A model generated the notes under the pieces. The model was not told the origin of the DNA, did no database searches, and was given only the letters and a program-made list of their open reading frames with translations. A program made the position numbers and the translations under genes. Shown one piece after another: positions 18,721-63,869 of a stretch of 64,000 bases of DNA; the stretch's first letter is position 1, and the number at the start of each line of letters is the position of its first letter. The stretch is from Lunularia cruciata (lineage: Eukaryota; Streptophyta; Marchantiopsida; Lunulariales; Lunulariaceae): assembly GCA_948567375.1 (NCBI GenBank), contig OX419755.1, forward strand, positions 25,932,517 to 25,996,516, given 5' to 3'.

Positions 18721-19612
18721 TAGTTTTTTACTTTGTCATAAATTTTTGTTGCGTTCTTGTGTGACTTTGGGGGCCGTTTTACTGCTGTCGTTGTTATTTT
18801 CAGCCCTTTTGGAACCGGTGTACTCGCCCTCTCTATCTACCGCGCTTGTTGGTGCCTCCTACTCCTTTTCGTTTTATTTCGGGGTATTATACTGGGTCTT
18901 TGGCCCTTTTCCCATAACTAACACTACTAAATACCACTACTAAATACCAATTGACGAGGTTCAATGCTTTAATACACGTTTCTATTAAATGGAATGAATT
19001 GTAAGATATTCAATTAAAAGCTTCTGTATATTCGGTCCGTATAACACAGTTTTAATTATTTTACCTCTAATGTTTTATCCTTGTACGGGCTTGATGGGTT
19101 CTTCCCATCCTACGCTGGTCGCTCTTTTCGCCCTTTTCTCTGGTTTATCATGTACCATAATACCACTGAATTGAGGAAAGGAAAGATCACCAAATGCTTA
19201 CTGAAACATTGCAAAAGCTAAGCTCTTTGACCTGCATCGGCATTTTAACGGTGAGAGGTTGTTATTTCCAGGCACGTTCAGGAGTATTTACACCTCAGGA
19301 GTACTTGACATGATTAAGCCTCAGTTTCATCGAGCCGCAGTACTGTGTACTGTTTCACCGAATAGACAGAATTGGCTAGAAGCAGAAATTGCGAGGGGAC
19401 CTGACTTTCGTCAAGGGGAATCACCGTGTTCCGCATTTGTGATGAAGGATTCATTGATGCAAATCAGGTCTTGAATCAAGTCTTCTGATGAGGCTTTTGA
19501 GTTGAGTTGAGATGTTTGGCATTTAAAAAAAATGTGGACATGTGTCGAGCTAGGCTGCTGGAACTGTGGAATAACAGAGGTTTTGTTAATCAACGAGTAG
19601 GCTGTGGAATCG
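18721..19612 (+). promoter_or_regulatory. PMS1 upstream region
   Basis: Base composition changes near 18750 from AT-rich repeat DNA to more balanced, pyrimidine-rich sequence, consistent with promoter and 5' UTR. No clear TATA box close to the start. Short upstream frames (from 19259 and 19507) show no similarity I recognise. Confidence 0.4.
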
Positions 19613-22600: not shown

Positions 22601-24910
22601 ATAATCAGAAGACAGGAACTATCAAAAAGCAGCAGGTAACAGGAATCACAGGCACCATGCGATTTTCATTCGCTTAGTTGAAGAAGAAATGCTTTCTGGC
22701 AGTAGTGTAAGGCTCTGGCCCTCCATGTGAAGAACAACATCGGATACTTGAATATCCTGGATCTTGGTATCGTTTACTGAGATTTGTATAACTTCTCTGG
22801 AATTAGTTGTTTCACAGCTGCAACACTAGCTTCAAGTGGTCGTGAGAAAGAAGGAACAGAAAAGCAAACCGCACTAGCAGCAGCAACTAAGGAATTGGAA
22901 CGGATGTTCAACAAAGCAGACTTCAAGCGTATGCAGGTCAAGCCAAACACTCAAATTTGCTTTGACCTTCGTCAACATGTGCAACTGAAGTTTATTATTA
23001 GGATCAAAACTGCAAATGTTACCTGTTGTTACTCTCAGAGCTGATTCTGGAGATACTAAGTCTTTGCAATGAAGACTTTTCCTTGAAGATGCATCCTATT
23101 TGTGAAAGTAATGTGAACTTATTTTGGACTGTTGAAACAGGTGCTCGGTCAGTTTAACATGGGCTTCATACTGGCCAAGATTGATCAAGATATTTTTATT
23201 GTTGATCAGGTTCGTACTTCTGGAGTAGTGTAGGGTAAGAGGACTAGTTTGAGCTAGTTTAACTAGTTTGGCTATGGCTAAATCATGGCTGGCTAGGGGA
23301 CCAGTACGACCAGTAATTGTCGAAGTAAGTGGTAAATAATGTTTCAAAGGTTTATCTCTAGTCAATGTGCAATACAAGGCGTTCCTTGTGCCATCTATAA
23401 GAAATTGAGTTGTGCACATGACTTTTGCAATTGGTTTAGGAGTCTGTTACGTCGTCTTGCAGCATGCCTCAGATGAGAAATACAATTTTGAACGGCTTAC
23501 AAAGAGCACTGTCCTAAACCGACAACCACTTCTCAGGTGTGTCCATAGACGTTGTCTCTCGTGCATAATTGAAGAAGTTATTGTATGCGGTGCACTTTGG
23601 ATGCAATCAGGAACTCACCACACTACTTGAGTGTGACCTGTCTTTCATGGTTTTGGACAGGCCACTTCCTTTGGAGCTTTCAGCCGCAGATGAAATCACC
23701 GTTACAACACACGCGGAAGTTTTCAGGTGCTTCAGTACATCTGTCCTCAATCGATAGCTTATGCACCAAAACTGTTTCTTTCTCATGTATTCATTGTATG
23801 TTTACCTTGGGGACGATCGAATTGTCCGCATCCAGAAACTCTAGAACAAAGATTGAAGATCAACCAGAGGGACAGATTAACGCTCTCTATCTTAACCTGC
23901 CCGAAGTCAATGTTTTATGTGCTCAAAAAGGTATATCTACCTACTAATCGATAGGAGTTGAATCTACTTACGGACGATCAGTGTTCTTTACATCGAAAAT
24001 TTACACACATCGAAAATTTACACTCGGACTCTTCATATGTGTACTTAATCAGGAAGAACGGTTTTGACTTTCTTGAACTTGAAGATGCTCCAGTGGGCCA
24101 GAGACTACGGTTGTCAGCTATTCCTTTCAGTAAAAATATTACCTTCGGTGTTGGAGGTATGTCTGTTACTTCCCTCTACACACATGGTACACTTGAGATG
24201 TACAACGGGTTGTGTATTCCATTACTTAATGTTTTCTTTTACATTAATTTGTTAAGCTAGATATGTGCTGGAACATGGACTGTTAATTCCTGTTGACAGT
24301 GGTGAGCGTTTGACGGTATTGGGATCTCAACTGCAAATCAGCTTTACGCCAATCACCTTTCTGATCTCCTATTGCGCAGATTTTCAAGAGCTTATTTCCC
24401 TCCTTGCCGACGAGCCAGCTATGTCTTTTGGACCAGATTCTGGAGAATCTCATGACGATAATATCTCAGGACTATCACCAATGTCAAAATGGTTTCCTCG
24501 TCCTTCGCGTGTGAGGGCCATGCTGGCCTCACGAGCTTGCAGGTCCTCCACCATGATCGGTGACCCTCTCAGTAAAACGGAAATGGAGCGGGTAAGCAAA
24601 GCCTCATATATGCCGCCCTTTTGATTTAATCATGCTATTACTTTTTATATATATATACGTCCTCTAGCGAACGGGTTCCGTACACTTTTAAGAAAAGACA
24701 AAACTAAAAAGAGAAAGTAATATGGACCCGTGTATATTCTTTTGGTGTCTGATAACTTGTTGGTTCCTCAACTTCATCTCTTCACAGATATTATCACATC
24801 TCGCAGAGCTGGATTCTCCTTGGAATTGTCCTCATGGCCGTCCCACAATGCGGCACTTAGTGGACTTGGGCTCTTTGGGGAAGCATTTTTCTTCTACTCG
24901 TCTATCCTAG
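19613..24910 (+). CDS. PMS1: DNA mismatch repair protein PMS1 (MutL homologue, PMS2-type)
   Basis: Partner of MLH1 in the MutL-alpha endonuclease of nuclear mismatch repair. Eleven coding exons: 19613-19828, 20240-20563, 20747-21868, 21998-22635, 22807-22936, 23141-23209, 23463-23536, 23661-23726, 24053-24156, 24380-24591, 24788-24910. All junctions are GT/AG and in phase, giving 1025 residues. The N-terminal GHKL ATPase shows KELVEN (E32, N36), DNGSGI (61-66), GFRGEAL (96-102) and [11 protein letters not shown] long Ser/acidic linker follows (about 380-760). The C-terminal half has GQFNMGFI, the endonuclease motif DQHA-x2-E-x4-E (832-843, split by intron 6), SRACRSS and [14 protein letters not shown]. 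The ATG at 19613 starts [12 protein letters not shown]; an upstream in-frame GTG is not used. Longer than Arabidopsis PMS1 (about 920), mostly in the linker. The exon 5 acceptor was chosen because it keeps phase and the AATL..ALAAAT segment. Confidence 0.93.
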
Positions 24911-39709: not shown

Positions 39710-39802
39710 TAATAATTTTGAAATCTGAAAGAAAAAATATGAAGAAGTGCAATGTCATTTTGGATCTGCATATTTGAAGTAGAGAATTAAAATGGTAGAT
39801 GT

Positions 39803-39896
39803 TGTGAGTATATACATCACTACATAACATGCATCGCTGTCAACATCATACACCATAGACACATGGCTCACACAGACCTAGACTCTAAAGTGCCAC
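39803..39896 (-). repeat. Extra LTR 5' fragment beyond the 3' LTR
   Basis: 94 bp matching the first ~100 bp of the 3' LTR (40354-40455) at roughly 80 percent by eye: both begin (minus strand) TGTGGCACTTTAGAGTC and end ATATACTCAC. It lies after the 3' LTR, and the same segment is missing from the outer end of the 5' LTR. Confidence 0.8.
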
Positions 39897-40455
39897 AATA
39901 ATCAGATTGTTGACAACACTCAAATCAACTCAACTCAGATCAATACTTGATTTGTCACTCTATAAACTGCCAACAACTATGCACTGATTATAGTCAAGTC
40001 ACACCCACTTCAGCTAAGAGAATCTAGGTGACGCTCACCGGCCTCTATCCACTATAGCTAGGAACTCAAAGGATCAACATCAGAGAATTGAGATCTCTGG
40101 AGTTGTACTTCAAAAGTATACCCTTGGACTTGAGCTAGGTCTAAAACCCTAATGGTCTCACTGACGGCACACTCAATGGTGCGAATGGTGTAAAGTGACA
40201 ATGAGCCCCACCATGAAGTCAATACCCCAAACACAAAATCTAACCATCAAAAAGTAGTCTATAAGTGAATGCTAAAATACCTCTAACTACTATCATTGCA
40301 ACTCCAATGTCCAAGCAATCTAGATGCAACATTACAAATGGTGTGATAGCTATCGTGAGTATATCTATCACTACACAACAAACATCACTATCAACATCAT
40401 ACACCATAGATACATAACTCACACAAAAGTCATACATAGACTCTAAAGTGCCACA
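39897..40455 (-). repeat. 3' LTR of the methyltransferase gypsy element
   Basis: On the minus strand it starts TGTGGCACTTTAG directly after the polypurine tract and ends ...CAATCTGATTATT. Its inner 452 bp (40348-39897) align with 48569-48118 without net length change. Confidence 0.8.
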
Positions 40456-40470
40456 ATTGCCCCCCTAGCT
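40456..40470 (-). promoter_or_regulatory. Polypurine tract of the methyltransferase gypsy element
   Basis: Minus strand AGCTAGGGGGGCAAT immediately before the LTR start TGTGGCAC; it marks the plus-strand priming site and fixes the LTR boundary. Confidence 0.7.
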
Positions 40471-40619: not shown

Positions 40620-40938
40620 TAGGTCAAGTATATCTAGGACATAACCACTATCCCTGAGGAATTACTGTGAGGGGAGGAGTCATACATGCCATATGCCATC
40701 CTCTCGAACAACTACCACACACTAACATAGTAGCTCTACCAAAAGAGCCATATAACATACACCTCAAGCCTACCCTTACAAGTGCTAAGCTTGGGTCCAT
40801 AGTACCATCAATGTTTGGAAGGTGGCATGGCACACAATTGTGCACATGATCTTTCCAAACAACACCATCACGTCCTTCTAACATAAGGACTCTAGATGGC
40901 AAAACCTCGCACACTCTCAAGATAGTGCAGCCTGTCAA
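40620..40938 (-). pseudogene. PHD finger domain at the pol C-terminus
   Basis: The minus strand reads VLMLEGRDGVVWKDHVHN, CVPCHLPNIDG, then GLRCMLYGSF..ATMLVCGSCSRGWHMACMTPPLTVIPQG-stop-WLCPRY. This is the PHD spacing: C-x2-[C], C-x2-C (VCGSC), H-x2-C (HMAC), then W-x-C-P-x-[C]. Two zinc-ligand Cys codons read Tyr (TAT) here and one codon before W is a TAG stop. PHD fingers bind histone H3 tails; placed after integrase, where chromoviruses carry a chromodomain, it could steer integration. That role is inference. Confidence 0.75.
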
Positions 40939-41049
40939 AACATCAAGTGTTGTCAGTGATGTCTATTGTAGATATACATAGTCACTTGGATGAAATTGAT
41001 GGACCAAGGGTCTATAACCTCCTCCTTGAATAGTAGCATAACGTAAGTT

Positions 41050-41861
41050 ATCCCTATGTTGAGCAATTACCAAGTTCTCAAAGGCCATCTACATCACTCT
41101 CCAAAAGATATTTGTCCGTTGAGAACATGCACTCACCCATACATTTGGATCATCCAAGTTCAAGACTATAGTAGCATCTTGATGAATGGCTGCAAGTAAA
41201 TCTGGATCTTGTCCATAGCATAGAAAGTAAGGAGAGAAGGATGTTAACGAGGTTTGTTGGCTGCCATCACCAAAACATATTGATGATGTCTCACAGTCAA
41301 TGGTAAAGGTCCAACAAAGTCCAAACTCCAACGGCAACCCAATCCCATGATAAATAATAGGTGTAACTGTGGTATATGGGCATTGAATGATGCTCTAACT
41401 CAATCAAAAACCACACATCTGGCCACAAACTGCTATACCTTGGTCTGCATACTGTGCCACCACTAGTGATTCTAAAGTAAGCTATATGTACGCTTTCCTC
41501 CAAAATTTCCTAGCTCCTCATGAGCATGACGGACCAACTGTAGTCTTTGAGATAGAAATGGTACTACTCTCACCCTACCATCCTCCCATACATGCAAAAG
41601 GTGTCTACCCTCCAATCTAAACCATCTAGCTTCCTGAAGAACACGGTCTTTCTCCTTGGCCCCAATTGTGCCATCCACAAGGCCAATGCAAAGATAGTCC
41701 ATCACTAAGACATCACCATGAATGTCTTGCTGAACTATATCAATATCTTCACTCTTTGGATCTATGACCTCAATAACTCCTCTTGTGTGCGTTGAGAGAG
41801 ATACTACTAAAGCCTCAAAAAATATACACAAAAAGGCCAATGCATGCCAACTTGGCACCAT
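41050..41861 (-). pseudogene. Integrase remnant lacking its catalytic core
   Basis: The minus strand has the pre-integrase segment (IGLVDGTIGAKEKDRVLQEA..RLEGRHLLHVWEDGRVRVVP), HHCC start RHAHEELGNFGGKRTYSLL (41540-41475), and the first strand of the core region (FTIDCETSS-like after a frameshift). It then jumps directly to SFSPYFLCYGQDPDLL (41245-41200) and the DDPNVWVSACSQRTN segment. The stretch that should carry the second Asp and the Glu of D,D-35-E is absent. Confidence 0.75.
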
Positions 41862-42052
41862 CTCCTCATCTATCTCACCATGCCAACGTGCTCTGGTTTG
41901 ATCCTACTGGCTAGGGCATGGGTTTCTACTCAACCCATCTGCATCACGGTTCACCACTCTAGGTCTGTGAACAACCATGAAATCATACTCTTGTAAAATC
42001 AAAGCCCATTGTGCAAGCTTCCTTGAAAGCTTGTTGGACTTCATCAACCACT

Positions 42053-42600
42053 TCAATGGCTGATGATCAATGATGAGAGTGAGGGGTTACCAAATAGGTA
42101 ACATTGGAAATGTGCTACTACCCAAACTGCTGCCAAGCACTCTCCCTCATATGAACTATACTTTGCCTCCACTGAATTCTTGGAGCGACTAGCATAGGCT
42201 ACCACAAACTCCTTCCCCTCATCATCATGTTGGGTGAGCACTGCTCCAAGCCCCAACATACTCCAATCGGTATGAACCTAAAATGGTTGTCCTCTGATTG
42301 GTCTCCTCAAAATAGGAGAATATGTCAACCTCTCCTTGAGCTCTACAAAAGCTCTCTCTTGCTCATCTCCCAACACTACTCTTGTGTAGGCTTGGTCAAA
42401 TTCATCAAGGCCTTAGCAATGGCACTAAATCCTCTAACATAGTAGGGATAGAAGTTTTTTAACCCAAGGTGAACTTGTGTAGCTCCTCAAGAACCTTCAA
42501 ACTCTCCGTCTTTCCTCTTTTGTAAGCTTGGGTCCAAGATCTGGCTCCCAAGTATCCTCTATAACTATCATAGGAGTGGAAGACGTACTGATTGGCTACA
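42053..42600 (-). pseudogene. RNase H and residual RT tail
   Basis: RNase H: MLGLGAVLTQHDDEGKEF, VAYASRSKNSVEAKYSSYEGECLA and VWVVAHFQCYLFG (42259-42100), with HQPLKWLMKSNKLSRKLA continuing to about 42000. Before it are only ERAFVELKERLTYSPIL (42365-42310) and a VLEELHKF..GFSAIAKAL junction (42500-42390) where the RT fingers, palm and thumb have been deleted; no [FY]xDD motif exists in this element. Confidence 0.75.
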
Positions 42601-42949
42601 ACACTGGACCCTTGGGAGCTTTAGTGTCATGCACCCAGCCACTAGAGGTCACAACCTCTATGTGAAAACTCACTCCACTCTGGTTGCAAGCTCCACACGT
42701 CCTCTAGTTGCATCCCAAGTGGACCAAGGGTGTAATCTAAGTAGCCCACGCTCATCTGGATGGACTCCAAGTAGACCACTCTCCCTAGTAGCTACTGGAT
42801 GTGTCCCAAGAATACCATGTCCACTCGATCCATCACTCCCAGCATGTGCCTATATCGTCTTGGTAGGCATAGGGCTCACAAGTGTCCGAGTTGTGATGCC
42901 TATCAAGCGCATCCTATGTTTCTTTGCCAAACCAAGGCTCACAATCCAG

Positions 42950-43900
42950 GTCAAACAATTCAGGTCCATAACCTGACCTAACACTTGACGCCTGAATGCC
43001 TCTAATACTACTAGAACAATGGTAATACCAGTGCAAAAACTCATCACCCGCTCTCTCTCATTGGCATTGGGCTCCACCAACTGTTGTAACTAAGAGTCCT
43101 AAACTAGTCCAGGTCCTCCCTCTCAAAAAGCATGAGAGCATAGGAAACTCATAAGTATGGGAAAAGCGGCTATAGGCTATCCAACTAGGTTCACCACTAC
43201 CATAGGTGACCTATCAGCCACTACCACCGTTTGAGATTGACGCCCCACATCCAAGATGTCATCAACAAGGATGTGGTCTAGTCGTTGAATCCCATCATAT
43301 GTACATTGTAGGACTTCTTTGGGTAAGAGGTTTTTCCACCAAAGACAAAGACAATGAGCCCATGATCCCACTTTGGTTGCATCCAACAATATAGTAGGTC
43401 CCATCCAAGAATGGACCTGATGTGTACTCGCCACCACTCTGGTGCAAGAATCACCCATCAAAGGAATGTTCTCCAAAAGGTAAGTTGGACAAACAACTGA
43501 TAAACCTAGAGATGTCGTAGTATTCGTAACATCTCCCAAAACACACTATAACGAGGATGTTGAAGACCCAAAGCTTGGCTAGCACATGTATGTCCCTAAC
43601 ATGGCCATCTAGAAATCACCAAGTGAATAGACCCATGTCTTTCCAGATCATGCACCCCCAATAAAGAAATGTCTACTGGTAGGGCCTTCTGGTAACCTTT
43701 GACTGTTGACATTGATAATAACTCAAGATACCGGTAGACCAAGTGTGCCACATGATGTAGAGAGACTTGCCTAACAATCTCATCTCTCTCTACATACAAG
43801 TACCTTTGTACTCGTATATCCACCTATAATACCGCAACTAGTTTGGTGCTAATCCCACCTAATAACTCTAATAGAGATATCCCTTCTATTGGATACTGCC
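42950..43900 (-). pseudogene. C5 cytosine DNA methyltransferase domain in a retrotransposon
   Basis: The minus strand carries, in family order: AdoMet motif I GISLLELLGGIS (43885-43850), motif II YLYVERDEIVRQV, motif III-like PVDISLLGVHDLE with HLVIS, catalytic motif IV WPC-stop-GH (Cys codon 43599-43601; the next codon, usually Gln of PCQ, is TAG), QALGLQHPRYSVFWEMLRILR, then after a frameshift motif VI YLLENIPL (about 43480-43456), VHSWMGPTILLDATKVGSWAH, motif VIII region AHCLCLWWKNLLP (Arg positions read Cys), LDxI..VGRQSQ and C-terminal ERERVMSF...RRQVLGQVMDLN (to 42958). Length about 315 residues fits a bare catalytic domain. It would methylate cytosine in DNA. It lies between protease and RT and is disabled in this copy by two stops and a frameshift. 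Confidence 0.88.
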
Positions 43901-44129
43901 AAGCAATGAGTGTGTCATCCAGAGGTGTCAAAGCAATCGACTCTGGAGGCTTATCCTCACACTCATCTCTTGATGGTACAAAGGCTCCACTCCAAGCCTA
44001 TTGCACCAACTGATTTGCATGTTGTTGCAATACCTCCCTTGAACTCCACAATGGAACATCCAAAGAGGAAGGAACAATCCCACTTGTACTCCAAATCCAA
44101 GTGATCTCCTCTGGTATTGGAGTATCCTC

Positions 44130-44640
44130 TACATGGGTGTTCCACTCCAACAAGTCACTAGGCCAAGTAACTGTACCATTGAAAGTTGAAACTGATGTTG
44201 CCATGGTCCCAGACCGTAGTGAGCCAAGACTGTCACTACTAAAGCATATTGGTAAGTGACATACCTGTCCCTCACCAGACAGCCAACCTGGTCTATAGGA
44301 GGTTGTCTCCTCCTAATAGTCAATATTGAAACCATGGGATACAACATTGCTCCCCCAACTAGCACATTGTATGACTCAACTATTATCGCAATAGCCTGAG
44401 CTCTTACCACCTAGCTATCAATCAGATGACCAGGCTGAACCTAGACAACAAGCTCCACACGTGTGATGTACTATGTCAAACCACCACCTAGAGATGTCTA
44501 GATCTGAAATGGACATCTCTCCACATCAATCTTCTATAACTCTAGACCGACTACTGCAACCTTCCCTAACATAATGGGTTGCACACCAGAGTCTAACAAG
44601 ACTCTCTAAGGTGTATAAACCTTCCTTGAAGGTCCTACCA
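44130..44640 (-). pseudogene. Retroviral-type aspartic protease of the methyltransferase element
   Basis: The minus strand reads RVLLDSGVQPIMLGK (about 44610-44565), with the canonical D-S-G active site, then VVGLEL and SYNVLVGGAMLYPMVSI (44375-44325), the usual second half of plant gypsy proteases. Stops occur between the two parts. Confidence 0.7.
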
Positions 44641-45479
44641 AGCAGAAAATCTCCCTCTGGTTATCCAATAGGAAAACACTAAGTGTGAACCATGCTCTCT
44701 CAAAGGCTGGTTTAGCTAGCAACTCCTCCAGTCTAGCCGCTGTTGCCTACCATAAACCACTGGTTGTTGAATGGATCCCATGCTCCGCAACCAAGTTAGC
44801 TCCACTATCAACCACCTCTACTTTAGTAGTAGGAAACGCATCATCCCTACTCTTACAAAGTGTGGCAGCCAATCGGAACATTGGGATTGGGTCAACTCCC
44901 AATGTAAACATGTCATTGGCTAAAAATAAAGGGCACCGCATAATCAACTGAGCCGCCCCCAACATCATGCTCAACTCAGTCTATGTAGTAGTAGGTAGCT
45001 GACTAGTAGGGAGTCCATCATGCACCCCATCACCACCTACCACACCTGCACTGGGATGTGTAGGAGCCATGGATATCATCTACAATACCTCAAATAGCAT
45101 GAAAGACAAGGGAAGTCTAACTCGTCTCTCAACCTCTCCTCTTAGTGGATCCAACTCCATGGATGCTCCTCTAGGCTCTGGAGCACGTACTGCACTCCTA
45201 TTCATTGTTGCAAATGCATCCACTTGTGCTACTCCGCACATGAAGTCCAAAGCATCTCTATCACCGGCATATGAGATAGAAGCCTCAGCACTCAAATCTG
45301 ATCGCCTCTAAGCAATGGCCATACTAGCCAATCTCTACTCCAATTGCTCAATCCAAGTTACCATAGTTGTATTAGAAGTAAGGGCAGGTACTTCACCTCT
45401 ACTAGGTGTAGATCCTCTACCACCTTGTCCTCCATGAACAGGAGCTCCTCTACTACCTGCCATAGCAGCCCTACCACTT

Positions 45480-46661
45480 TGTAACTCTGGGTGTAGGTCA
45501 AAGCACCGGTCACTAGTGTGACCAAATCTATGGCAATGCTCACATTGCCTCTGTGTTGGCTGTGATGCACTAGAGGTATCAAGTCCACTGCCCTATGTAC
45601 ACTCTCTCCTATGGTGAAGTCTACCACAAGTCCAACAAGCAACACCACCACTCACTGGCTATTGCTGACCTAAAAAGGAAGGTAAGGATCTAGCTCCACT
45701 AGGCCCTCCATAGGATCTAGGTTGTCCACCTTGTCCTCAAAAACCAGCTAGGCATGGTGCACTCTATTGCACTCTAGAAGAAGTAATAGTTGTGGATGAA
45801 GTCTCCCTACCAAATCCAGATGTCACCACCCTCTCCTCTACCATGTTGAGCTCAATACGCTCAGCCAAACCAAAGACCACTGCCAAAGTAAGCAAAGTAG
45901 CCTATAACAAAGTAGCATCACAAACTCTACGTCGCAACTCCCTATCTAATAGCCCATACCAAAACTAGACTGCTTGGGCCTTAGTAACTCCCTGAGTGAA
46001 ATTGATCATCTACCTCATGCAAGTGTATGCCTTGCGTAGGCTCTCTCCAACCTTCAGTTGGAACTCCTACAAGCTCCTCAGCTTGTCAGTCCATACTCTC
46101 TGGCAGTTCTACCTCAAACACTAGAAGAACTCCACCATGGGGTTAAACCCACAGTACCACACCACTTCCTGCAGCAATACCTCCACTTGTGGTAACACTA
46201 TCTCTAGCTAGTGCACTTCCACTAGCTCCACCAACACTACTTGAGCTAGAACTTGTGGGTACAGCCAATCTACTCCTAGAAACCAAGCTTGAAGTGATGG
46301 AGACATAGTTTAGAGACCAATATTGTCTCCATAACTCAATCTCCTCTAAATGAGCTCTCTTGAACTCATGGTAGTTGTCCATTGGTTGATCCTCCAAGTG
46401 TTGAAACAACTCCTTCCATGCCATGAAGGGTGTAAACAAAGTTGGGTTCCACATCTGTTGCAAATCACACCAACTATTGAACTCATGGATGAAGTCATCT
46501 AACTCAATGGTACCCACTATACTAGAATAACACCTAGGGCCTTTGGACGCCCCATAAATCTTGTCCATGTCCCACAACAATGGTCCGGATATGCCAAGTG
46601 CACTCTTAACTAAATCAGCTCTTGTATCAAACTCCAACTCAGAGTCAATCTTCTCCCTCAT
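45480..46661 (-). pseudogene. gag of the methyltransferase element
   Basis: The 172-codon frame 46661-46143 contains the gag core (MWNPTLFTPFMAWKELF..FKRAHLEEIELW). A Ser-rich linker follows, then broken frames with zinc knuckles CEHCHRFGHTSDRC (45546-45503; intact C-x2-C-x4-H-x4-C) and CWTCGRLHHRRES (about 45635-45600), where the last Cys is lost. Confidence 0.75.
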
Positions 46662-46669
46662 TGGGACCT

Positions 46670-48117: not shown

Positions 48118-48569
48118 TGTAGTCAAATTGTTTATAACACTTGAATCAACTCAACTCAAATCAATACTTGATCTGTCACTCTATAAACTGCCAACAATTG
48201 GGCACTGATTATAGTCAAGCCATACCCACTCTAGCTAAGAGAATCTAGGTGACGCTTGCCAGCCTCTGTCCACCATAACCAAGAACTCAAAGGCTCAACA
48301 TTAGAGAAGTGAGCTCTTTGGAGTTACACTTTGAAAGTATACCCTTGGACTTGAGCTAGGTCTAAAACCCTAACGGTCCCACTGACAACACACTCGACGG
48401 TGCAAACGGTGCAAAGTGACGGTGAGCCCCACTATGAAGTCAGTACCCCAAACACAAAATCTGACTATCAGAAAGTAGTCTGTAAGTGACTGCTAAAATA
48501 CCTCAGACTACTATCATTGAAACTCCAATGTCCAAGCAATCTAAATACAACACTACAAATGGCGTGACA
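48118..48569 (-). repeat. 5' LTR of the methyltransferase element, lacking its first ~100 bp
   Basis: 452 bp, minus-strand ends TGTCACGCC...GACTACA, aligning with 40348-39897. The TGTGGCACTTT segment that begins the 3' LTR is absent here; CC sequence starts at 48570. Confidence 0.8.
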
Positions 48570-49361
48570 TAGAAGATGATTTGTATCTGGAGATTTCTAT
48601 GAAGTAGTTGAAGTGTGAAGCCTACTTAAAGGAGTCATTTGCAATGATGTTGTTGTTTAGTCTTCATATTTTGGAAGTTGAGTAAAGAAAAGTGTTGTAA
48701 CTCAATGCTTGTTGTTTTAGCTTAACCCCAAGTTTAACAAGCTTAATTCAAGCTTAATTCTTGTGTGTGTTTGTGAGTGTTGGGAGAAGTTCAAAGTGCA
48801 AGTCTGATTGTGTTAGATGTTGGATTCTACATCTAATCTGATTTTGATGATTCAGTTCCTTCTTTGAAAGAAGATCTCTGATTTCATTCTCTATGTTTGA
48901 TCCTAAGTGGATAGCAATCAAAGCAATGCCTTGACAAATCCATGAGGAATTGTAATGTTGGTAGTATTTTAGATTTGTGAGTGCAGTGTTGGATTGATGC
49001 AAATAAATTTTGATTGAGGAAGTTGTGCCTTCAATGGAGGTGTGGAATGCAATTCCAAAGCAAAGTCATTTCATGGTGAAGTAGCCTTCTTTGAAAGAAC
49101 TGAATCATCAAAATCAAGATTGATTTGGGAAGATTTGAAGTATTGTGGTTTATGGGTGACATTTCATTGTGACAAGACTATGAATTTAGTGTTTGTTACT
49201 CTCTTTTGAGTGTGGTTTCTACTCAAGAGATTAAAGAAAAACTCAAGAAGAAATTATTGTTACATTGTACTTTGTATTTGACCATTTTTTACTCATATCT
49301 TTGTGAGAATGAATTGTTACTTGTTGATTACCGCAAAAGTGATACTTCTTGGATTGTCACA

Positions 49362-49574: not shown

Positions 49575-50422
49575 TGTAATACCAATAACTAGACATGTAA
49601 TCTAGAGGTGAAAATTGGCTTGGTAACATTTGGAAGGATCTTATGTATGATGGGCTAGGTAGATCAGATAGAGGTGTCACTAAAAGAGTACTCCTACTAA
49701 TAGGTAGAGTTGAAAATAGCCTAAATTTGTACCATAAGCTAGACATATTATCTAGAAAATTGGCTTGGTAACATCTAGAAGGATTTTATGTATGATGGGC
49801 TAGGTAGATCAGATAGAGGTGTCACCAAAAGAGGACTTTTACTAATAGGGCAGGAGTCTAAAATAGCCCAAAAACTTTAGAGTCAATTTTGGATGCCTAA
49901 ACAAATGAATTAGTCCTTGAAAATGTGCAAAAACCCTCCTCTTCCAAATAAAGGAAAGGTTGGCCTTCCTTCCTCCCAGGTTTTTCTCATTAAGAGCTTT
50001 CCAATGGTACCTCACCCACGCAATTTGGAGATTCCTACAAGAAGATTCTCTAAAGATTCCCTCCAGTCAAAGATGGTTTGACCAACTAGATATGATCAAA
50101 ATCAACATTTCACCCATGCATGCAACTAATCTAAGGGTAGAGCTTGCTTACATGTCACCAATCCATGTATCTAATCCAAGGGTGGAGCTTCCTTCAGGGA
50201 GACCCCTTGGCTATAGAATACAGTCAAGGTGCTCCTTTGGGACATCAAAGATTGAGTGCAGACCTTTGTGTTTTCTCTTGTGTTTCTCTTAAGGTCTCCT
50301 ATCATTGGGAGATTACAAGAAGTTCCCTTAGCATTTTGAGTCCTTCACCAAGGAGAACAAGGATGGCGATGATATTTACAGTTGTTGAGACATAAGGAAC
50401 TCAATAGAAGTTGGGTATTGTA
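49575..50422 (+). mobile_element. Solo LTR D2 inside the Helitron
   Basis: 848-bp member of the D family: TGTAATACC start, end near GGGTATTGTA, with the tandemly duplicated unit (tagatcagatagaggtgtcac at about 49660 and 49805). Flanks agaag and gtgtt do not match. The right junction carries a short telomere-like repeat. Confidence 0.75.
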
Positions 50423-52562: not shown

Positions 52563-54637
52563 CTAAATTTGTTGCCCCCGTTGAGAATCCTCCTTTAATT
52601 TCAAGAATCTTTGAAGAGACTCTGGGATTGGCATGACAGTTTCATGACGAGAACAACATTGACATGGATCCACACATACTTCATCCGGTGAGAATTCATC
52701 CTTTATGTTGTTAAATCCTTTCTTGGTGGCGTCCATCTGAGGTGGTCTCTGTCATTTCAATTGCAAAAGAAAGTTATTAGGCTTTTATGTCACATGTACG
52801 CTCTAAGGCGCAAGTAATAAATGGCATAGAATGGAGTCCTAATGCAGGCAGGATATGGGTAAAGGACCACACCTTCGTAGCTTCAACAAGGGGACCCCAA
52901 TATTCCAACCGATTATACTGTTCTACATCTGAATGGAAATACACATACACCGGTGCAGTTTGCAGTTCAGGGTGTTTCTTGAACAATTCGGTGTCCCCAT
53001 GCAAGATTGCCTCCAGAACCTGCCAGATGGTGCACACTTTTTTAGCTTGCTGAAGCAAGCGTTATTTGTCTGTCAAGTAATATCTAAATTTCTAAATTTT
53101 GATGCACCAAACCAGAGCGTATAGCCAGAAAGATGAACTACTTCGGGTCCAAGCAAGTTTTACACTCAATGATTCATGTGTTTCTAAAGAACATACCATT
53201 GGTAGTTCCTTTTGGAAGATGAAAAAGCGGAGCTTCGCAATGAAGTAGTGAAGCCAGTTGCCTCCACTTATGTGACAGTGAACGTGCAGTGCGAGAACCC
53301 CTCTGGTCTTTCTCCATTCTGCCAAAACCTCGTCTCGTTGTAATCTGCTGTACCAGCCCATAAACTGCAATCCTTTTCAAGTCAGAACCAATTAGGGCTG
53401 TTTCATACCTTAAAGATTTGAATAGTAGTTTACACATTAAATAATTTGAAAACAAATGAGAACGATCAAAGTGAAATGGAATTTGAGCTGCAAAACTTTG
53501 CATATATATTAAGGTGCATGACATGTTCACAGGGTTGCACACAAAGATCAGAAATCTCAGATATATTCATGCTGCTGGATGCAACCTATCTGCAAATGCT
53601 GGAAACGCCTTTTACCTGACTCTTGTTGATTTCATCAGCAATAGCTAGCGTCAGTTGTGCGGTAACGTCACTGTGAGTTACTGTGTATATACGCGGATGC
53701 TCCACAACCTCTGCAGGCCCTTTCTTCCTTTCTCTTCCCAAAAGCAGCACCCGGAGCTTAGCTGCCTGAAATATAGCTGGGCCGATTAATCTAGCCTCCT
53801 GTATGACATCATATAGACGGACAATGAGACCATGTCGTTTCTCAATTGCACCCACAATATTTCATGGCAATTTCCTCTTTCAAGAACTCGCTCTCTGCTG
53901 TTAAGACTGATCTTTTTCTGCAGATTGGGTCCTCTTTCTGTTGACCTCTCTCACTGAATATTTGGCCAAGAAGCTCTTGCCAATACCGGGAGAGATGAGG
54001 AGGATGCTATTGCGGCTTCGTCCAGAAAAGGAGGATCCATCATTTAGTTTTTGATCAGATATGCTATGCTACATTTAGTTTGAATCGGATAGGTCGTCCT
54101 TTAGCTCTCTCATGTAACTTTGCCACATAAGAACGGTCCACGAGTCATATACTGTTCTTCCCAAGTCTCAGATACAACTCGATCTGTACTCCTATGCAAT
54201 TACGAGATCACAAGGAGAGAGATATGGTCCCTTACATTCTTCTGCTGAATAGTATAATTGAGTATAATTGAGTATAATACTGTAAGTATAATTGAGGTAC
54301 ATACCACAATAGGTACAGATTTTGAGAAGCCTTGTGGGCTCTCGACACTTTTACTTCGGCGTAATCTTTTGCAATTGTCCCTGTCCCAAAAGCTAGTTGT
54401 CAAACTGATTCCGCTCGTTGAAACCGAGGCCCTCTCTGCTCTTCTTGTTGCACCTGATTTGAAATTGGCGGGGCTCGCAACGCGTGCTGAACTGAAAGTT
54501 GAGCTGCATGAAGTACTCGTGACCGCTCCAGTCTGCGACCTTTCCCATATTTCCCTTGACTTGAATCCTCGCCATCTCGACGATTTTTGCACAGGAAGTG
54601 CAGCCACAAGACCGTGTGTCCCAGCAACAGCCATCAT
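52563..54637 (-). CDS. SGR: STAY-GREEN, chlorophyll a Mg-dechelatase, chloroplast
   Basis: Removes Mg from chlorophyll a to give pheophytin a, the committing step of chlorophyll breakdown, on thylakoids. Five coding exons on the minus strand: 54637-54305, 53798-53616, 53364-53197, 53019-52873, 52748-52563. All are GT/AG at phase 0, giving 338 residues. Residues 1-107 are Ser/Arg-rich (transit peptide and variable part). The SGR domain runs from VEARLIGPAIF (111) through YTVTHSD (149-155), LTLAIADEINKSQ, GWYSRLQRDEVLAEW, the His-rich LHVHCHISGG (198-207), FIFQKELP and VYVYFHSDVEQYNRLEYWGPL. The last exon adds the Cys-rich motif P-x3-C-x3-C-x-C-C (298-309), present in true SGR but not SGR-LIKE proteins; the usual following Phe-Pro is Ser-Arg here. 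An in-frame second ATG lies at 54634. Confidence 0.94.
54251..54294. repeat. Short tandem repeat in SGR intron 1
   Basis: The 10-bp unit agtataattg repeats at 54251, 54261 and 54271 (last imperfect), with another partial copy at 54285, ending about 10 bp from the intron 1 donor at 54304. Confidence 0.8.
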
Positions 54638-58655: not shown

Positions 58656-58668
58656 TTGGTATCAGAGC
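58656..58668 (+). promoter_or_regulatory. Primer binding site (initiator tRNA-Met)
   Basis: TTGGTATCAGAGC directly after the 5' LTR, complementary to the 3' end of plant initiator tRNA-Met. Confidence 0.93.
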
Positions 58669-58926
58669 AAGAATGGGATGGATGGATTTTATGGACCACC
58701 AAATCCACTTCCACCAAACCATTGGGACTTTCATGTCCAGATATTACCAAAGCATCGTTTCACACAATTCATCACCTCACGCTTTGGGCAAGATTTTCTA
58801 CATATGATCACAGTGTCAGAGGAATCCTTGATACTTCCAGTTGTAACTTATGGAGAACGGTGGACGTGTTGTATCTATGTGTTAATTAACTAGATAAATT
58901 GAGGGTAGTGGAATAGAGTAGTAGAG

Positions 58927-59760
58927 ATGGCGGCAATACCGGATGTTATCCTTGCAATGCAACAACAAATCGAGCATCTTACTCAATTGTTGGATGAACG
59001 GGACCAGCAACGACGAGAACAGATAGACAAAGTGCTAGTTCGAGATGGAGAAGATCGCATTCGATTTCCAAAACCCAAGGTGTTTGAAGGCAAGAATCTT
59101 CCAAGCACAGTGGAGAATTTTGTGTTTGACTGTGAATGTTACTTTGAAGCCACCAATCTTGAAGACGAGCGGAAACAAATTCTCTTGGCTTCTAGCCAGT
59201 TGGATGGTGTGGCAAAACTTTGGTGGCGATTCCGAGTAGAAAGAGCTAAGCAACAAATTGTTACACCGATTTTGACATGGGCAGAATTCAAGGATGCAAT
59301 ACTTGGTGGATTTCAGACTATAAATGTCACCCGAGCTGCACAAGATAAATTGGCGGAGTTGAGGCAGATTGGCTCAATGAGAAGCTATATCACACAATTT
59401 CAGAATATCATCATGCAAATTCCAGATCTCCAAGAAGGTGAAGTTCTGGATCAATTTGTGCAAGGATTGAAGTCACGAACTAGATTGGAGGTGACCATGC
59501 AAGAGCCACAGAATGTAGAAGAAGCCATGCAATTAGCTGAGCATTTTGATTCCTTAGTTGCAACAACTTGGTCTCGACCTCAACCTACACAAAACCTACC
59601 AGTACCACGAGTGGAAGAACTGGTACCAATGGAGATTGATGCCATCCAACGAAGACCACTTGGCACAGCAGATAGAGAAAGATTACGACAAAATAGAAGT
59701 TGCTTTTATTGTCGCCAAGTTGGACATCACATTGTTGAATGTCCACTTAGGAATGGGTGA
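58927..59760 (+). CDS. gag polyprotein of the chromovirus
   Basis: 277 codons, intact. N-terminal coiled-coil (MQQQIEHLTQLLDERDQQRREQ), then the retrotransposon gag core (FDCECYFEATN, VAKLWWRFRVERA, LTWAEFKDAILGGFQ, LRQIGSMRSYITQFQNII, FVQGLKSRTRLEV) and a C-terminal zinc knuckle CFYCRQVGHHIVEC (C-x2-C-x4-H-x4-C). It forms the particle that packages element RNA. The ATG at 58927 is the first good start after the primer site. It ends 4 residues after the knuckle, and pol begins in another frame. Confidence 0.93.
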   Translation: MAAIPDVILAMQQQIEHLTQLLDERDQQRREQIDKVLVRDGEDRIRFPKPKVFEGKNLPSTVENFVFDCECYFEATNLEDERKQILLASSQLDGVAKLWWRFRVERAKQQIVTPILTWAEFKDAILGGFQTINVTRAAQDKLAELRQIGSMRSYITQFQNIIMQIPDLQEGEVLDQFVQGLKSRTRLEVTMQEPQNVEEAMQLAEHFDSLVATTWSRPQPTQNLPVPRVEELVPMEIDAIQRRPLGTADRERLRQNRSCFYCRQVGHHIVECPLRNG

Positions 59761-59852
59761 CCTCGACAAGTTGCCCAGATGGAGTTTGTAGAATAGAATC
59801 ATCAGGGAAATGAAGAATCCCAATAGGAAATTTCAAGCCACCTACTGGGAGC

Positions 59853-60344
59853 TTGATTAGTTCCAATGGGATTGAAGGCTTGACCTATGCAAGTTTGCTT
59901 CACTTGCAAGGTATGATATCTAATCAAGGTTGTATGATTTTGGTTGATTTTGGAAGTTCAGAGAATTGCATATCTATGCAAGTAGCAAAGGAATTGGGTA
60001 TTCCTATCAAGCCAGTGATTGGAAGTAGTTTGATGATAGTGGATGGTAGAAAAGGTTTTGCATTCCGCACCTTGCATCTTGTTACCTTCAAAATTGGGAA
60101 GGAGTATTTGGAGTGTATGAGGTTTGTAGTGGCACCTCTACACTATGATATTATTCTAGGTCTACCTTGGCTTGAACGTCATAAGGTTCAATTTGATTGG
60201 ACCCGACATCAAATTCAAGTACAACACCAAGGTAGGAATTTCCAATTAGGTTGTCTGGCACCTTTGAGTAAGACACCTAAGAATAGTCAGTCCCAAGATG
60301 GGAAGTTTGTTGAGAAGGTAGCCATAGAGCAAATCTGGAAGTGA
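59853..60344 (+). pseudogene. Aspartic protease with altered active site
   Basis: Open frame with ILVDFGSSENCIS, where family members have D-S/T-G; the active-site triad reads D-F-G here. Further hallmarks are intact (GIPIKPVIG, LHYDIILGLPWLERHKVQFDW). It ends at a TGA (60342) within the first 60-bp linker repeat; RT continues in the same frame from 60345. Confidence 0.85.
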
Positions 60345-60470
60345 GATGAGTCCCAAGATGGGAAGTTTGCCAAGAAGAAAACCATGGAGCAAGCTTGGAA
60401 GAGAGATGAGTCCCTAGAAGGGAAGTTTGTTAATGAAGCAGCCATAGAGCAAGCTTTGGAGGAAGATAAG
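60291..60470 (+). repeat. 60-bp coding tandem repeat (3 copies) in the PR-RT linker
   Basis: Units start at 60291, 60351 and 60411 (tccc[ta]aga[ta]gggaagtttg). They encode SQDGKFVEKVAIEQIWK, SQDGKFAKKKTMEQAWKRDE and SLEGKFVNEAAIEQALEEDK, one 20-residue repeat per unit. The first ends in the TGA that separates PR from RT. Confidence 0.9.
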
Positions 60471-61442
60471 TCTGTATTTGTGGTGTGGATCAAGCCGATT
60501 GCACAAGAACAATTTGAGGAGGGCCAGGTGCCGCATCAAGCAACGATTGATTGGATAGTTCAAGCAACGGTTGATCGGATAGTTCAGGAGTTTGCAGATG
60601 TGTTTCCGGATGATCTGCCAAAGGGATTACCCTCTGATCAAGGTATGCCCTTCAAGATCAAGTTATTGCCAAGGAGTACTCCAGTGAGTAGACCAATCAA
60701 TCGGCTCTCACCAAAGGAGTTGGAGGAGTTGCAAACAACACTTACAGAGTTGTTGGAGAAGGATTTCATACGACATAGTACCTCTCCGTGGGGAGCACCG
60801 GTACTATTTGTTCCAAAGGATGGAGGACTTTGTTTCTGTATTGATTACCATGGGCTCAATAAGCAAACCGTGAAGAATGCATATCCCTTGCCTTGGATCA
60901 ATGACCTGCTTGATCAATTAAGTGGAGCACGCTACTTTTCCAAGCTAGATCTTTGTAGCGGCTATTGGCAAATTCCTATTGAAGGAGAAGACGTGCAAAA
61001 GACTGCCTTTCACACAAGGTATGGACATTTTGAGTGGAGAGTTCTACCTTTCAGACTCACTAATGCTCCAGCAGTCTTCATGGATCAGATGCATCGGGTG
61101 TTGGAGGGACTATTGGATCAGTCTGTGGTAGTGTTCTTAGATGATATCTTAATCTATAGTAGGACAGAGGCAGAACACAGGAATCATGTGCGAGAAGTCC
61201 TAAGACAACTACAACAAAGGAAATTTTACTGCAAGAAGTCAAAGTGTGCTTTTTGGCAGAAGAAGGTTACCTTCTTGGGTCATAAGATCTCATCAGAGGG
61301 GATCAAGATGGAAGAAGAGAAGATCAAGGCCATTACTGATTGGCCTACCCCAAAGGATGCTACCAAAGTACGAGCATTCAATGGATTGGCCAGTTTTTAC
61401 CGACGGTTCATCCACTATATGCTCACGTGGCTGCACCATTGA
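60345..61442 (+). pseudogene. Reverse transcriptase of the chromovirus (frameshifted end)
   Basis: The frame is open through the RT palm: DLPKGLPSDQGMPFKI, LSPKELEELQTTLTELLEKDFIR, SPWGAPVLFVPKDGG, CIDYHGLNKQT, FSKLDLCSGYWQI, TAFHTRYGHFEW and the catalytic VVVFLDDILIYS (61123-61158). Thumb and connection follow ([38 protein letters not shown]). A frameshift near 61418-61425 then moves RNase H to another frame. LPFGLTNAP is LPFRLTNAP here. Confidence 0.9.
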
Positions 61443-61924
61443 CTGACCTCTTGGGAAAGAACTTGAGCTTCCAATGGACCACCAAGCATGAAGAAACATT
61501 CCTGAAGTTAAAGCATATGGTATCTTTAAGACCCATTCTTCAACCATATGATCCTCAACTACCTTCTGTGGTTGATTTTGATGCTTCTAACTTTGCAATT
61601 GGAGCTGTGTTGCAACAGGAATTTCCAGATGGACTACATCCTATTGCCTTTGTGTCTCGCCAACTAAATACAGCTGAAAGAAATTACTCTGCTTGAGATT
61701 GGGAACAACTTGCAATGGTATATGCCACCAAGGTATGGAGGCATTATCTCTTGGAGAAACAAGTGATCATGCAAATTGATCACAAGCCATTGTTGCAGAC
61801 CTTACACCTAGAGCACATGAAGAGTTGACATCATCGATGGGAAGAGCAACTCCAATTGTTTGACATCAAACTTGAGTACAAACCAGGTCGGTTCCATGTC
61901 ATCCCTGATGCTCTATCATGACGA
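61425..61924 (+). pseudogene. RNase H of the chromovirus
   Basis: [56 protein letters not shown], stop (61694), DWEQLAMVYATKVWRHYLL, QIDHKPLLQTL, a second stop at the KS-HHRWEEQLQ point, YKPGRFHVIPDALS and a third stop (TGA for an expected Arg). Confidence 0.88.
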
Positions 61925-63230
61925 CCTGATTTGAAGTCTCTTCCTCTCATCGCGGCAGCAATTACGATGGTGTCAATTGATCCCAAGATTCATAACAAGT
62001 TTTGGTTAGCTCTTCAGCAAGATCCCTTCTTCCAAATGGTATATGGTCGGCTAACAACAGGTGACAAGGAGTACAACACCTTCTCCTTCAAGGAAGGCTT
62101 TCTATTCCATGCGGACCGGATCTATGTTCCAGCCAAAGGTGATCTTTGACTTGTGCGCCTTCAAGAAGCCCATGATTTACCCATCGCTGGTCACATGGGT
62201 GTGGACAAGACCTTGGGTACCCTCTAACGTCAATGGTGGTGGCCCAACATGACACGGGATGTTCAAGAATATTTTCGATCGTGTGAGAGCTGCCAACGTA
62301 ACAAGGCCAGCAACCAAAAGCCGGGTGGACTCCTTCAACCGCTTGCCGTTCCATTAGCTTGTTGGGAGCATGTGAGCTTGGATCTCATCACATCTTTGCC
62401 AAAGACAAAACAAGGACACACCGCTCTCGTGATGTTTGTGGATAAGCTTAGTAAGCAAATCCACTTGGCACCAACCTGTGATACCGTGGATGCTCCAACC
62501 TTAGCGCAAATCTACTTCAACAATGTCTTCAAGCATCATGGAATGCCATGCGTACTCATCTCCGACCGTGATCCTCGCTTTACCAAGAAGTTTTGGCAAG
62601 CACTCTTTCAGATACTCGGCACCAAGCTTGCTTTGTCCACGGCCTATCATCCTCAAACTGATGGAAAACCAAACGTGCAAATCATACATTGGAGGATATG
62701 TTGCATGCCTTTGTCAATGTCCACCATACCAATTGAGATTAATGTCTTGCTGTTGCCGAATTTGCCTACAACAATTCCAAACAGGCAAGCACCGGATTCT
62801 CTCCTTTCTTTCTCAATTTTGGCCAAGATCCGCTTGTTCCAGATTCTCTTCTTGCTCCCCCTCCATCTCAGGTTCCTCATACTTCCACATTCTTGACCAC
62901 TATATCCCAATCTTTCCAACAAGCCAAGTCTCACCTCCTTGTTGCTTAGAATCGCCAAAAACAATATGCGGACCACCATCGTTGAGATCTCACCTTTGAA
63001 GTCGGTGATAAAGTCATGCTATCTTCTAGTAACCTCCCTCTCCCACTTGATACCCAAGTTCGTAAACTTGCCCCTAATTGGATAGGACCCTTTGATATCA
63101 CCCAAATTGTCTCTCTTGTTGCTTATCATCTTGCCTTGCCTTGTCACATGCATATCCATCCTGTCTTTCATGTTTCCAAGTTGAAACCCTTTGTTCCTAA
63201 CCCCTCTTCCTTTTCCTCTTGAGTCCAACC
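61925..63230 (+). pseudogene. Integrase of the chromovirus (frameshifted in the catalytic core)
   Basis: Linker LPLIAAAITMVSIDPK, then after a stop at 62149 the HHCC finger (H residues lost to a frame change; CESCQRNKA intact at 62290), core with VSLDLITSLP (first Asp), LISDRDPRF (second Asp) and AYHPQTDGK. There a single-base loss near 62670 changes frame and removes the codon context of the catalytic Glu. The C-terminal part is readable in a third frame: GDKVMLSSSNLPLPLDTQVRKLAPNWIGPFDI, HPVFHVSKLKPF. Confidence 0.88.
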
Positions 63231-63450
63231 TCCCCCTCTTCCTATCTCTATCAATGATCATGAGGAGTACAAAGTTGATTGTATCCTTGCGCATTGCCAC
63301 ATTCAACGAGGCCGTCGCCAACATACGGAGTACAAGGTCCTTTGGAAAGGGTATCCCCTTCATGATGCCACTTGGGAACCTCTTTCTCACCTCCACAATG
63401 CACATACGGCCATCCAAGAATTCGAAGCTTCACTGGCAACAAGGACATCA
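63231..63450 (+). pseudogene. Chromodomain at the pol C-terminus
   Basis: EEYKVDCILAHC, RGRRQHTEYKVLWKGYPLHDATWEPLSHL and AIQEFEA form a complete chromodomain fold signature (Y/W..WKGYP..TWEP). It identifies the element as a chromovirus; such domains target integration to histone-marked chromatin. Confidence 0.9.
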
Positions 63451-63458
63451 CCAACTAG

Positions 63459-63471
63459 CGGCGGGGGAATA
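63459..63471 (+). promoter_or_regulatory. Polypurine tract of the chromovirus
   Basis: CGGCGGGGGAATA immediately before the 3' LTR; plus-strand priming site. Confidence 0.85.
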
Positions 63472-63869
63472 TGTAACAATATGGAGTTTAGCGACAAAGT
63501 CAATCAAGCTCACAAAGTAGCACATAAGACAAATTAGCCTAGAATATTCCTGAAGTATCTAGGAAGCTTCTTGTGAAGCTTCCTGGTTAGTTTAGCTTGC
63601 ACCTTAAGTAAGTAGCTTCTAGAAGGAAGCTTCTAGAAGCTTCCAACTAGCTTAGCTTGCACGCCAAGTAGGCGGCTTCTAGAAGGAAGCTTCTTGAGAA
63701 GCTTCCTAGTTAACTTGGCTTGCACTCTAAGAAAGTGGCTTGAGGAAGCTTCTTGAGAAGCTTCTCTAAAGCCAAAGCTCATGCTAGGCATTTGGAGTTT
63801 TCCCTCATTCAAGTGTCCCAATGTGAGTTTCCATTCTCCTATTTCTCTCCTCGGTTTTGGTCTTTTACA
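63472..63869 (+). repeat. 3' LTR of the chromovirus (28-bp deletion)
   Basis: 398 bp, same ends as the 5' LTR. It lacks the segment corresponding to about 58524-58552, which contains the TATA box. Confidence 0.93.

Follow-up and report, generated by a model that had tools for sequence, protein, structure and literature searches.

A 64,000-nucleotide stretch of the genome of the liverwort Lunularia cruciata (contig OX419755.1, positions 25,932,517 to 25,996,516; hereafter the window, numbered from its first base) carries on its minus strand, from 48569 to 39800, a decayed gypsy-type retroelement of 8,770 bp in which a DNMT3-like C5-methyltransferase (43997-42853; seven stops, one frameshift) is located between the protease and the reverse transcriptase (RT), and which is flanked on both sides by the 4-bp duplication TCTA. 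This identity of the window element is, in our judgment, close to certain. The window copy is a dead, old member of a large gypsy-type family that also has young members, and in this family the methyltransferase is a resident gene, as shown by its fixed place in the copies read, by a ratio of nonsynonymous to synonymous differences (pN/pS) well under 1 and by its membership in one clade with the enzymes of algal elements.

A sequence-only reading of the window had proposed a retrotransposon-borne methyltransferase from a series of motifs on the minus strand, and all of the motifs quoted were located in C5-methyltransferase order. The N-terminal half of the enzyme (43506..43997; motifs I and IV, three stops) contains LLELLGG at about 43870 and WPC ending at 43599, and the C-terminal half, which lies in another frame (42853..43545; motifs VI, VIII and X, four stops), contains LLENIPL and AHCLCLWW within the open stretch 43545-43180 and RRQVLGQVMDLN within 43089-42853, so that reading through takes the seven stops, written as X, and one frame change near 43490. 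The outcome of the profile search suggested in that reading was divided: neither the pieces nor the X-joined reading of the window reached Pfam PF00145 (weak unrelated matches were ignored), but the joined reading matched 29 proteins with E-values down to 4.9e-130, six of which (P0001-P0006) are listed with PF00145. Every species named among the 29 belongs to the bryophytes (two Sphagnum, Calypogeia fissa, Riccia sorocarpa and Marchantia polymorpha). The best match, P0001, reaches PF00145 at 6.2e-11 and aligns with copies from the same genome as the window with E-values down to 3.8e-178; judged by such alignment scores, the match of the window methyltransferase to its relatives is far in excess of chance. 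Six residues (P139, C140, Q141, E183, N184 and P186) are invariant in 12 aligned relatives, and motifs I, IV, VI, VIII and X are present in all 23 host copies compared, 16 of them without a stop, with WPCQ, EN(V/I)P and motif X kept throughout. The motif order I-IV-VI-VIII-X is unrearranged, and DNMT3 is nearest by profile, sequence and fold, DNMT2 being weaker by profile. Since motif IV of the family reads PCQ rather than the PCN of animal DNMT3, the enzyme is named DNMT3-like only; the same PCQ is found in the host gene assigned to DNMT3.

When the 566-Mb assembly of the host was searched with P0001, 13,362 first-look candidates were obtained, and the best 111, which were scored, all match P0001 at 72-74% identity. 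From the top of this list 20 stretches of 10 kb were taken, chosen therefore by enzyme match, and the order protease-DNMT-RT-RNase H-integrase-PHD was found in 19 of them. Words allowed up to two mismatches occur in the genome 1,888 times for the repeat junction described below, 3,399 times for motif IV, 4,041 times for motif I and 4,997 times for RT, with 0 matches for the reversed-word controls. According to the sequence-only reading, copies of the element devoid of the segment would have marked it as an isolated insertion. Such a picture did not emerge from 30 copies on C1, up to 28.6 Mb, that were chosen by an exact, non-coding junction, blind to the coding sequence, and in which word positions near the junctions were compared: an exact methyltransferase word is present in 26 (motif IV in 15, motif I in 24) and an exact RT word in 25, at the right distance. 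When only the motif IV word was used, it accompanied 28 out of 51 exact junctions as far as 53.8 Mb (mirrored control, 1). An enzyme-less subfamily had been suspected from junctions with the RT word but no first methyltransferase word, and the second word resolved most of these. The suggested check for purifying selection gave a methyltransferase pN/pS of 0.311 within the 23 copies, 0.433 within 13 others (from 16 fetched by PF00145 score) and 0.358 between the two sets, values that lean low because the copies were chosen by enzyme score and that come from pairs sharing history. The corresponding value for RT was 0.348 (18 copies).

The organization of an unbroken relative is seen in L001 (CADCWO010000201.1), a public contig of 9,285 bp with 127-bp identical ends that was binned in a cyanobacterial metagenome-assembled genome (MAG). 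Its first frame (1,162 aa) encodes gag, CCHC, protease and methyltransferase and its second frame (ORF2; 1,047 aa) RT, RNase H, an rve integrase and a PHD finger, with no chromodomain among the Pfam matches of ORF2 at E 0.01. These parts are collinear on the window (gag 46529-46164, CCHC/protease 45643-44333, methyltransferase stretch 44333-42907, RT stub 42556-42473, RNase H/integrase 42397-41265, integrase tail/PHD 41262-40633). A bacterial origin of the element was considered because L001 and P0058 come from a cyanobacterial and an Obscuribacterales bin, respectively, and was set aside because L001 carries the domains of a retroelement all the way from gag to PHD and because Streptomyces and phage enzymes score far lower; both sequences are probably eukaryotic-type retroelements misbinned in MAGs. 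Streptomyces and IMG/VR contigs with C5-methyltransferases (L002-L012) were also found by an IAGWPCQ-like or EPxADERE-like word.

On the minus strand of the window, the gag gene persists as an open stretch of 174 aa (46146..46667; tblastn with L001 gag, 46529-46164, E 1.8e-6), followed by a decayed gag CCHC region and protease (44333..45643; tblastn, L001 ORF1 residues 168-610). Beyond the methyltransferase there remain an N-terminal stub of the RT region (42473..42556), after which the RT core (L001 ORF2 residues 50-316) is deleted at 42473/42468, the RNase H (42089..42397; L001 mapping, and Pfam RT_RNaseH_2 at 1.3e-19 for 42056-42277), a stretch from the end of RNase H to the start of the integrase (41265..42080), which is broken off by the deletion of integrase residues 711-823 at 41265/41262, and the C-terminal part of the integrase with the PHD finger (40633..41262; L001 residues 824-1033; Pfam PHD 8.2e-5), in which, by eye, two zinc-ligand cysteines are lost compared with L001. 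Gag, CCHC and protease thus lie upstream of the enzyme and RNase H and integrase downstream, as the sequence-only reading had it; to that reading must be added the missing RT core and integrase residues and the PHD finger that ends the element. At sites where all aligned copies agree, C>T changes on either strand of the window copy affect 22/64 CHG, 9/34 CG and 14/304 CHH sites in the methyltransferase part (20 copies aligned), 41/145, 17/50 and 44/746 in gag-protease (19 copies) and 15/39, 10/22 and 11/208 in RNase H-integrase (19 copies). This excess at CG and CHG is the footprint expected from methylation at those sites.

The enzyme and RT frames are separated by a stop codon in a recurrent context. 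In 19 of the 20 stretches UAG is followed by CAG-CCA (in one case CAG-CUA) 18 codons ahead of the conserved start of the RT part, and in the 20th (L036) the site was not located by the anchor of the script; L001 has UAG-CAA-UCA, and the frames before and after the stop are in phase in L001, L017 and L019. Compared with these 19 copies, 42585..42612 of the window copy reads to us as an eroded remnant of the same site. The UAG-CAR-YYA context is that of tobacco mosaic virus readthrough. The stop places the DNMT on the Gag side and, if leaky, would cause the enzyme to be made with Gag, in excess of RT.

The flanking repeats had been described as a pair of long terminal repeats (LTRs), which we also assumed at first and dropped on finding a split, A-coding-B-A-B layout in the window and in the copies. 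From left to right along the element, the target duplication TCTA (48570..48573) is followed by repeat A1 (48120..48569; 5' terminus TGTCACGCC; 391/448 identical to A2), the coding part, a polypurine tract AGGGGGGCA (40458..40466; a similar tract is found in L001) immediately before repeat B1 (40351..40457; 91/107 identical to B2), a GC spacer joining fused ends (40349..40350), repeat A2 (39899..40348, by alignment to A1), repeat B2 (39800..39898; 3' terminus CACAACA) and the second TCTA (39796..39799). The B1-A2 junction CACGACA-GC-TGTCACG is conserved in other copies and in L001. The layout is complete in 15 of the 20 host stretches; in L021 and L040 the stretch shows B-A-B and lacks an A1, L032 is A-coding-B-A with no B2 found, L035 has a truncated A2, and L022 is A-coding-B only. 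Copies end in TGTCACGCC and GCACGACA, and exact 4-bp target duplications were found by script in 15 of 18 copies and by eye in a 16th (L037, CATG on both sides); in L032 and L035, for which no B2 was found, the duplication could not be read at the true end. L022 (C2:70829626-70839625), in which the inner junction is absent, has a perfect ACTT duplication, showing that A-coding-B by itself can be inserted or remain, as an alternative integrated form without the second A-B. The integrase appears to use the start of A and the end of B, much as though a circle or tandem were cut where the ends are fused. A search for a tRNA-Met primer site found none in L001; the window has five matches, as many as chance would give, all outside this element. 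The A1/A2 distance is 0.0044-0.035 in 15 copies, 0.131 in L035 and 0.144 in the window copy. The element has the protease-RT-RNase H-integrase order, TG...CA ends and short target duplications of Ty3/gypsy elements but split repeats in place of two identical full LTRs, and instead of the tyrosine recombinase of DIRS elements there is an rve integrase domain in L001, with 4-bp duplications in the copies.

A quick tree of the enzyme with 25 rows was built, including 17 retroelement enzymes, namely 16 of the 66 matches (out of 174) that passed a coverage filter together with P0183, which had failed it; for RNase H-integrase, 118 of 121 sequences were kept. The 17 enzymes, among them those of Klebsormidium, Closterium and bryophyte elements, form one clade (SH-aLRT 100) apart from host DNMT3, human DNMT3A pieces and DRM, in a tree from which DNMT3 genes of algae and other bryophytes are absent and which is read for the clade, not for inner order. 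This single clade apart from the sampled host DNMT3 and DRM argues for one old capture, and the RT-integrase parts of these elements are also related. P0183 (KFL_009030040) has the order protease-methyltransferase-RT-RNase H-integrase and shares 47% identity with L001 ORF2 over 88%, which together with the clade points to common descent of both enzyme and Pol with the Klebsormidium element. The suggestion of a resident gypsy gene in a plant, akin to a charophyte case, is thus borne out by the word matches, by the position in 19 of 20 stretches and by the clade shared with Klebsormidium. By RNase H to integrase, P0177, P0179, P0186, P0192, P0195 and P0196 fall inside the clade with the enzyme, and their methyltransferase is undetected at E 1e-3, being either lost or too diverged.

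Among related systems, the host's own DNMT3-like (L041/L044), DRM-like (L042/L055) and CMT-like (L043) genes, classed by eye, share the C5-methyltransferase fold but match P0001 at only 29-31% identity (L041, L042, L055) or not at all (L043, L044), and the element enzyme, unrearranged, stands apart from the host genes in the tree. Chromoviruses are gypsy elements with a chromodomain after the integrase; the present family likewise has a chromatin-reading module behind its integrase, which is however a PHD finger. Matches of this finger in solved structures include CHD4, PHF12, UHRF1, KDM5A and PHF21A. The PHD fingers so matched include readers of unmodified H3K4. The closest known element is KnitGypsy-Dnmt3 of Klebsormidium nitens (de Mendoza et al., 2018; PMC5890265), of which P0183 appears to be one. 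It also combines gypsy-type domains with a Dnmt3-like enzyme between protease and RT, its repeats are called DIRS-like in the legend of Fig. 4c of that paper, resembling the A-coding-B-A-B of the window, purifying selection was reported for it, and its enzyme is in one clade with that of the window. The Lunularia element differs in its land-plant host, in its thousands of word matches, in the enzyme lying before the UAG-CAR-YYA stop, on the Gag side, and in the PHD finger that ends Pol in this family, P0183 being partial at that end; the main text of PMC5890265 uses 'TSD' a single time, in connection with SymbioLINE, and contains neither 'readthrough' nor 'PHD'. SymbioDIRS-Dnmt3, a retroelement of dinoflagellates, similarly encodes a Dnmt3-like enzyme and has A-coding-B-A-B repeats, but uses a tyrosine recombinase in contrast to the DDE-type integrase and 4-bp target duplications found here, and its enzyme is active in yeast (de Mendoza et al., 2018), whereas the Lunularia enzyme is known from sequence alone. 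The kind of element is therefore already known. No report of such elements in land plants was found in the open-access literature searched (preprints not covered), in which a single paper contains the name 'KnitGypsy'; Sarre et al. (2025; PMC12344493) refer to retroelement DNMT3 in streptophytes on the authority of the 2018 paper, and the passages of PMC8616336 considered contain nothing on such elements. As far as this literature extends, the occurrence in land-plant hosts, the matches numbering thousands within a single genome, the 4-bp target duplications, the conserved fused-end junction, the Gag-side stop context, the PHD finger and the single clade are new.

The explanation that we favor would begin with a leaky stop, by which the methyltransferase would be made together with Gag and protease at a high level and RT-integrase at a low level. 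The protease would free the methyltransferase inside the particle, where it could add 5-methylcytosine de novo to fresh element DNA ahead of or during integration; a new copy would then enter the genome already marked, causing less damage to the host or not being recognized as naked foreign DNA. The PHD finger on the integrase tail would read histone H3 and help to pick the site, the fused-end junction B-GC-A may be substrate or template for making integrase ends, and the window copy would later have decayed through deamination at CG and CHG sites and two deletions. As a whole we consider this the best and a reasonably probable explanation; the self-marking step taken by itself we hold only tentatively, at somewhat less than an even chance. 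Animal DNMT3A couples a reader of unmodified H3K4 (ADD) with the same fold (PMC11021467). Several observations weigh against the proposal. When the Klebsormidium domain was put into yeast, no methylation resulted, an outcome from which its authors draw no conclusion because DNMT3B failed there too, and retroelements lacking the gene are mobile as well (de Mendoza et al., 2018). Activity in this enzyme family is a prediction, and the leakiness of the stop is presumed from its motif. The CG and CHG decay of the window copy is equally explained by host enzymes, which it does not tell apart from the element's own. The RT word is commoner (4,997) than either methyltransferase word (3,399 and 4,041), which may reflect enzyme-less copies or methyltransferase words that diverge or decay faster, and 4 of the 30 blind-chosen copies have no exact methyltransferase word. 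Integrase pN/pS is 0.658 (19 copies), a weaker constraint than that of the enzyme, whose own values carry the selection bias and shared history noted above; motif IV reads WECQ, not WPCQ, in some distant members, and no methyltransferase is detectable in P0186 and P0192, two relatives whose frame ahead of RT is long.

The most serious alternative is that the enzyme is kept for another target, such as element RNA, tRNA or host chromatin near the insertion, or to moderate copy number for the host. Some enzymes with a DNMT fold act on RNA, de Mendoza et al. (2018) have raised the possibilities of RNA methylation (for SymbioLINE) and of a slowing of retrotransposition, and the family has PCQ rather than the PCN of animal DNMT3; however, DNMT3 is nearest by all three measures, and a place in the Gag-Pro product would point to the particle, so that we judge this alternative unlikely, though not negligible. 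A non-catalytic job of the domain, for example nucleic-acid binding in the particle, would agree with the Klebsormidium domain having shown no activity (de Mendoza et al., 2018) but sits poorly with catalytic motifs kept in 23 of 23 copies and six residues invariant in 12 relatives, and appears very improbable.

Concerning origin, the chance insertion of an isolated methyltransferase fragment into one gypsy copy might be suggested by the broken window copy with no PF00145 match, but is refuted, with virtually no probability left to it, by thousands of word matches, by the fixed position and by the presence of the gene in liverwort, moss and algal elements alike. Capture of the gene from host DNMT3 separately in every plant lineage is a more substantial alternative, given that the K. 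nitens acquisition was reported as independent of that in dinoflagellates (de Mendoza et al., 2018) and that the tree was made without algal or other bryophyte DNMT3 genes; the one clade of 17 retroelement enzymes, apart from host DNMT3, human DNMT3A pieces and DRM, and the relatedness of the RT-integrase parts nevertheless make it improbable. Going beyond a single old capture, one might propose that a single early green-plant capture founded a gypsy lineage, from algae to bryophytes, that packs a Gag-level de novo DNMT3-like enzyme alongside a PHD reader of H3 linked to the integrase, thereby rebuilding in the particle the DNMT3 logic of reading H3 and writing 5-methylcytosine, and installing its own silent mark before or at integration, with the split-repeat fused-end junction feeding a DDE integrase; in this full form the proposal is conceivable but on balance rather unlikely.

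Elsewhere in the window, a second, better preserved gypsy element at 58909-63534 (+) contains gag, RT, RNase H, integrase and, by eye, an apparent chromodomain, and an exact TGGTATCAGAGC primer site lies just upstream of it at 58657. Host exons resembling, by eye, PMS1 and STAY-GREEN, both named in the sequence-only reading, lie at 19601-23041 (+) and 52780-53861 (-), respectively, and two 95-bp direct repeats, 93% alike and with starts 145 bp apart, are found at 49610-49849.

Transposons are usually regarded as targets of host methylation. In the present land-plant genome, matches to a methyltransferase gene borne by the elements themselves number in the thousands. The joining of split, DIRS-like repeats to DDE-type integration bears on how split-repeat elements finish their ends. 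If the proposed explanation is true, a curiosity of one charophyte and of dinoflagellates would become a long-lived lineage with young land-plant copies, in which the role of the enzyme could be tested by methylome sequencing and mutants.
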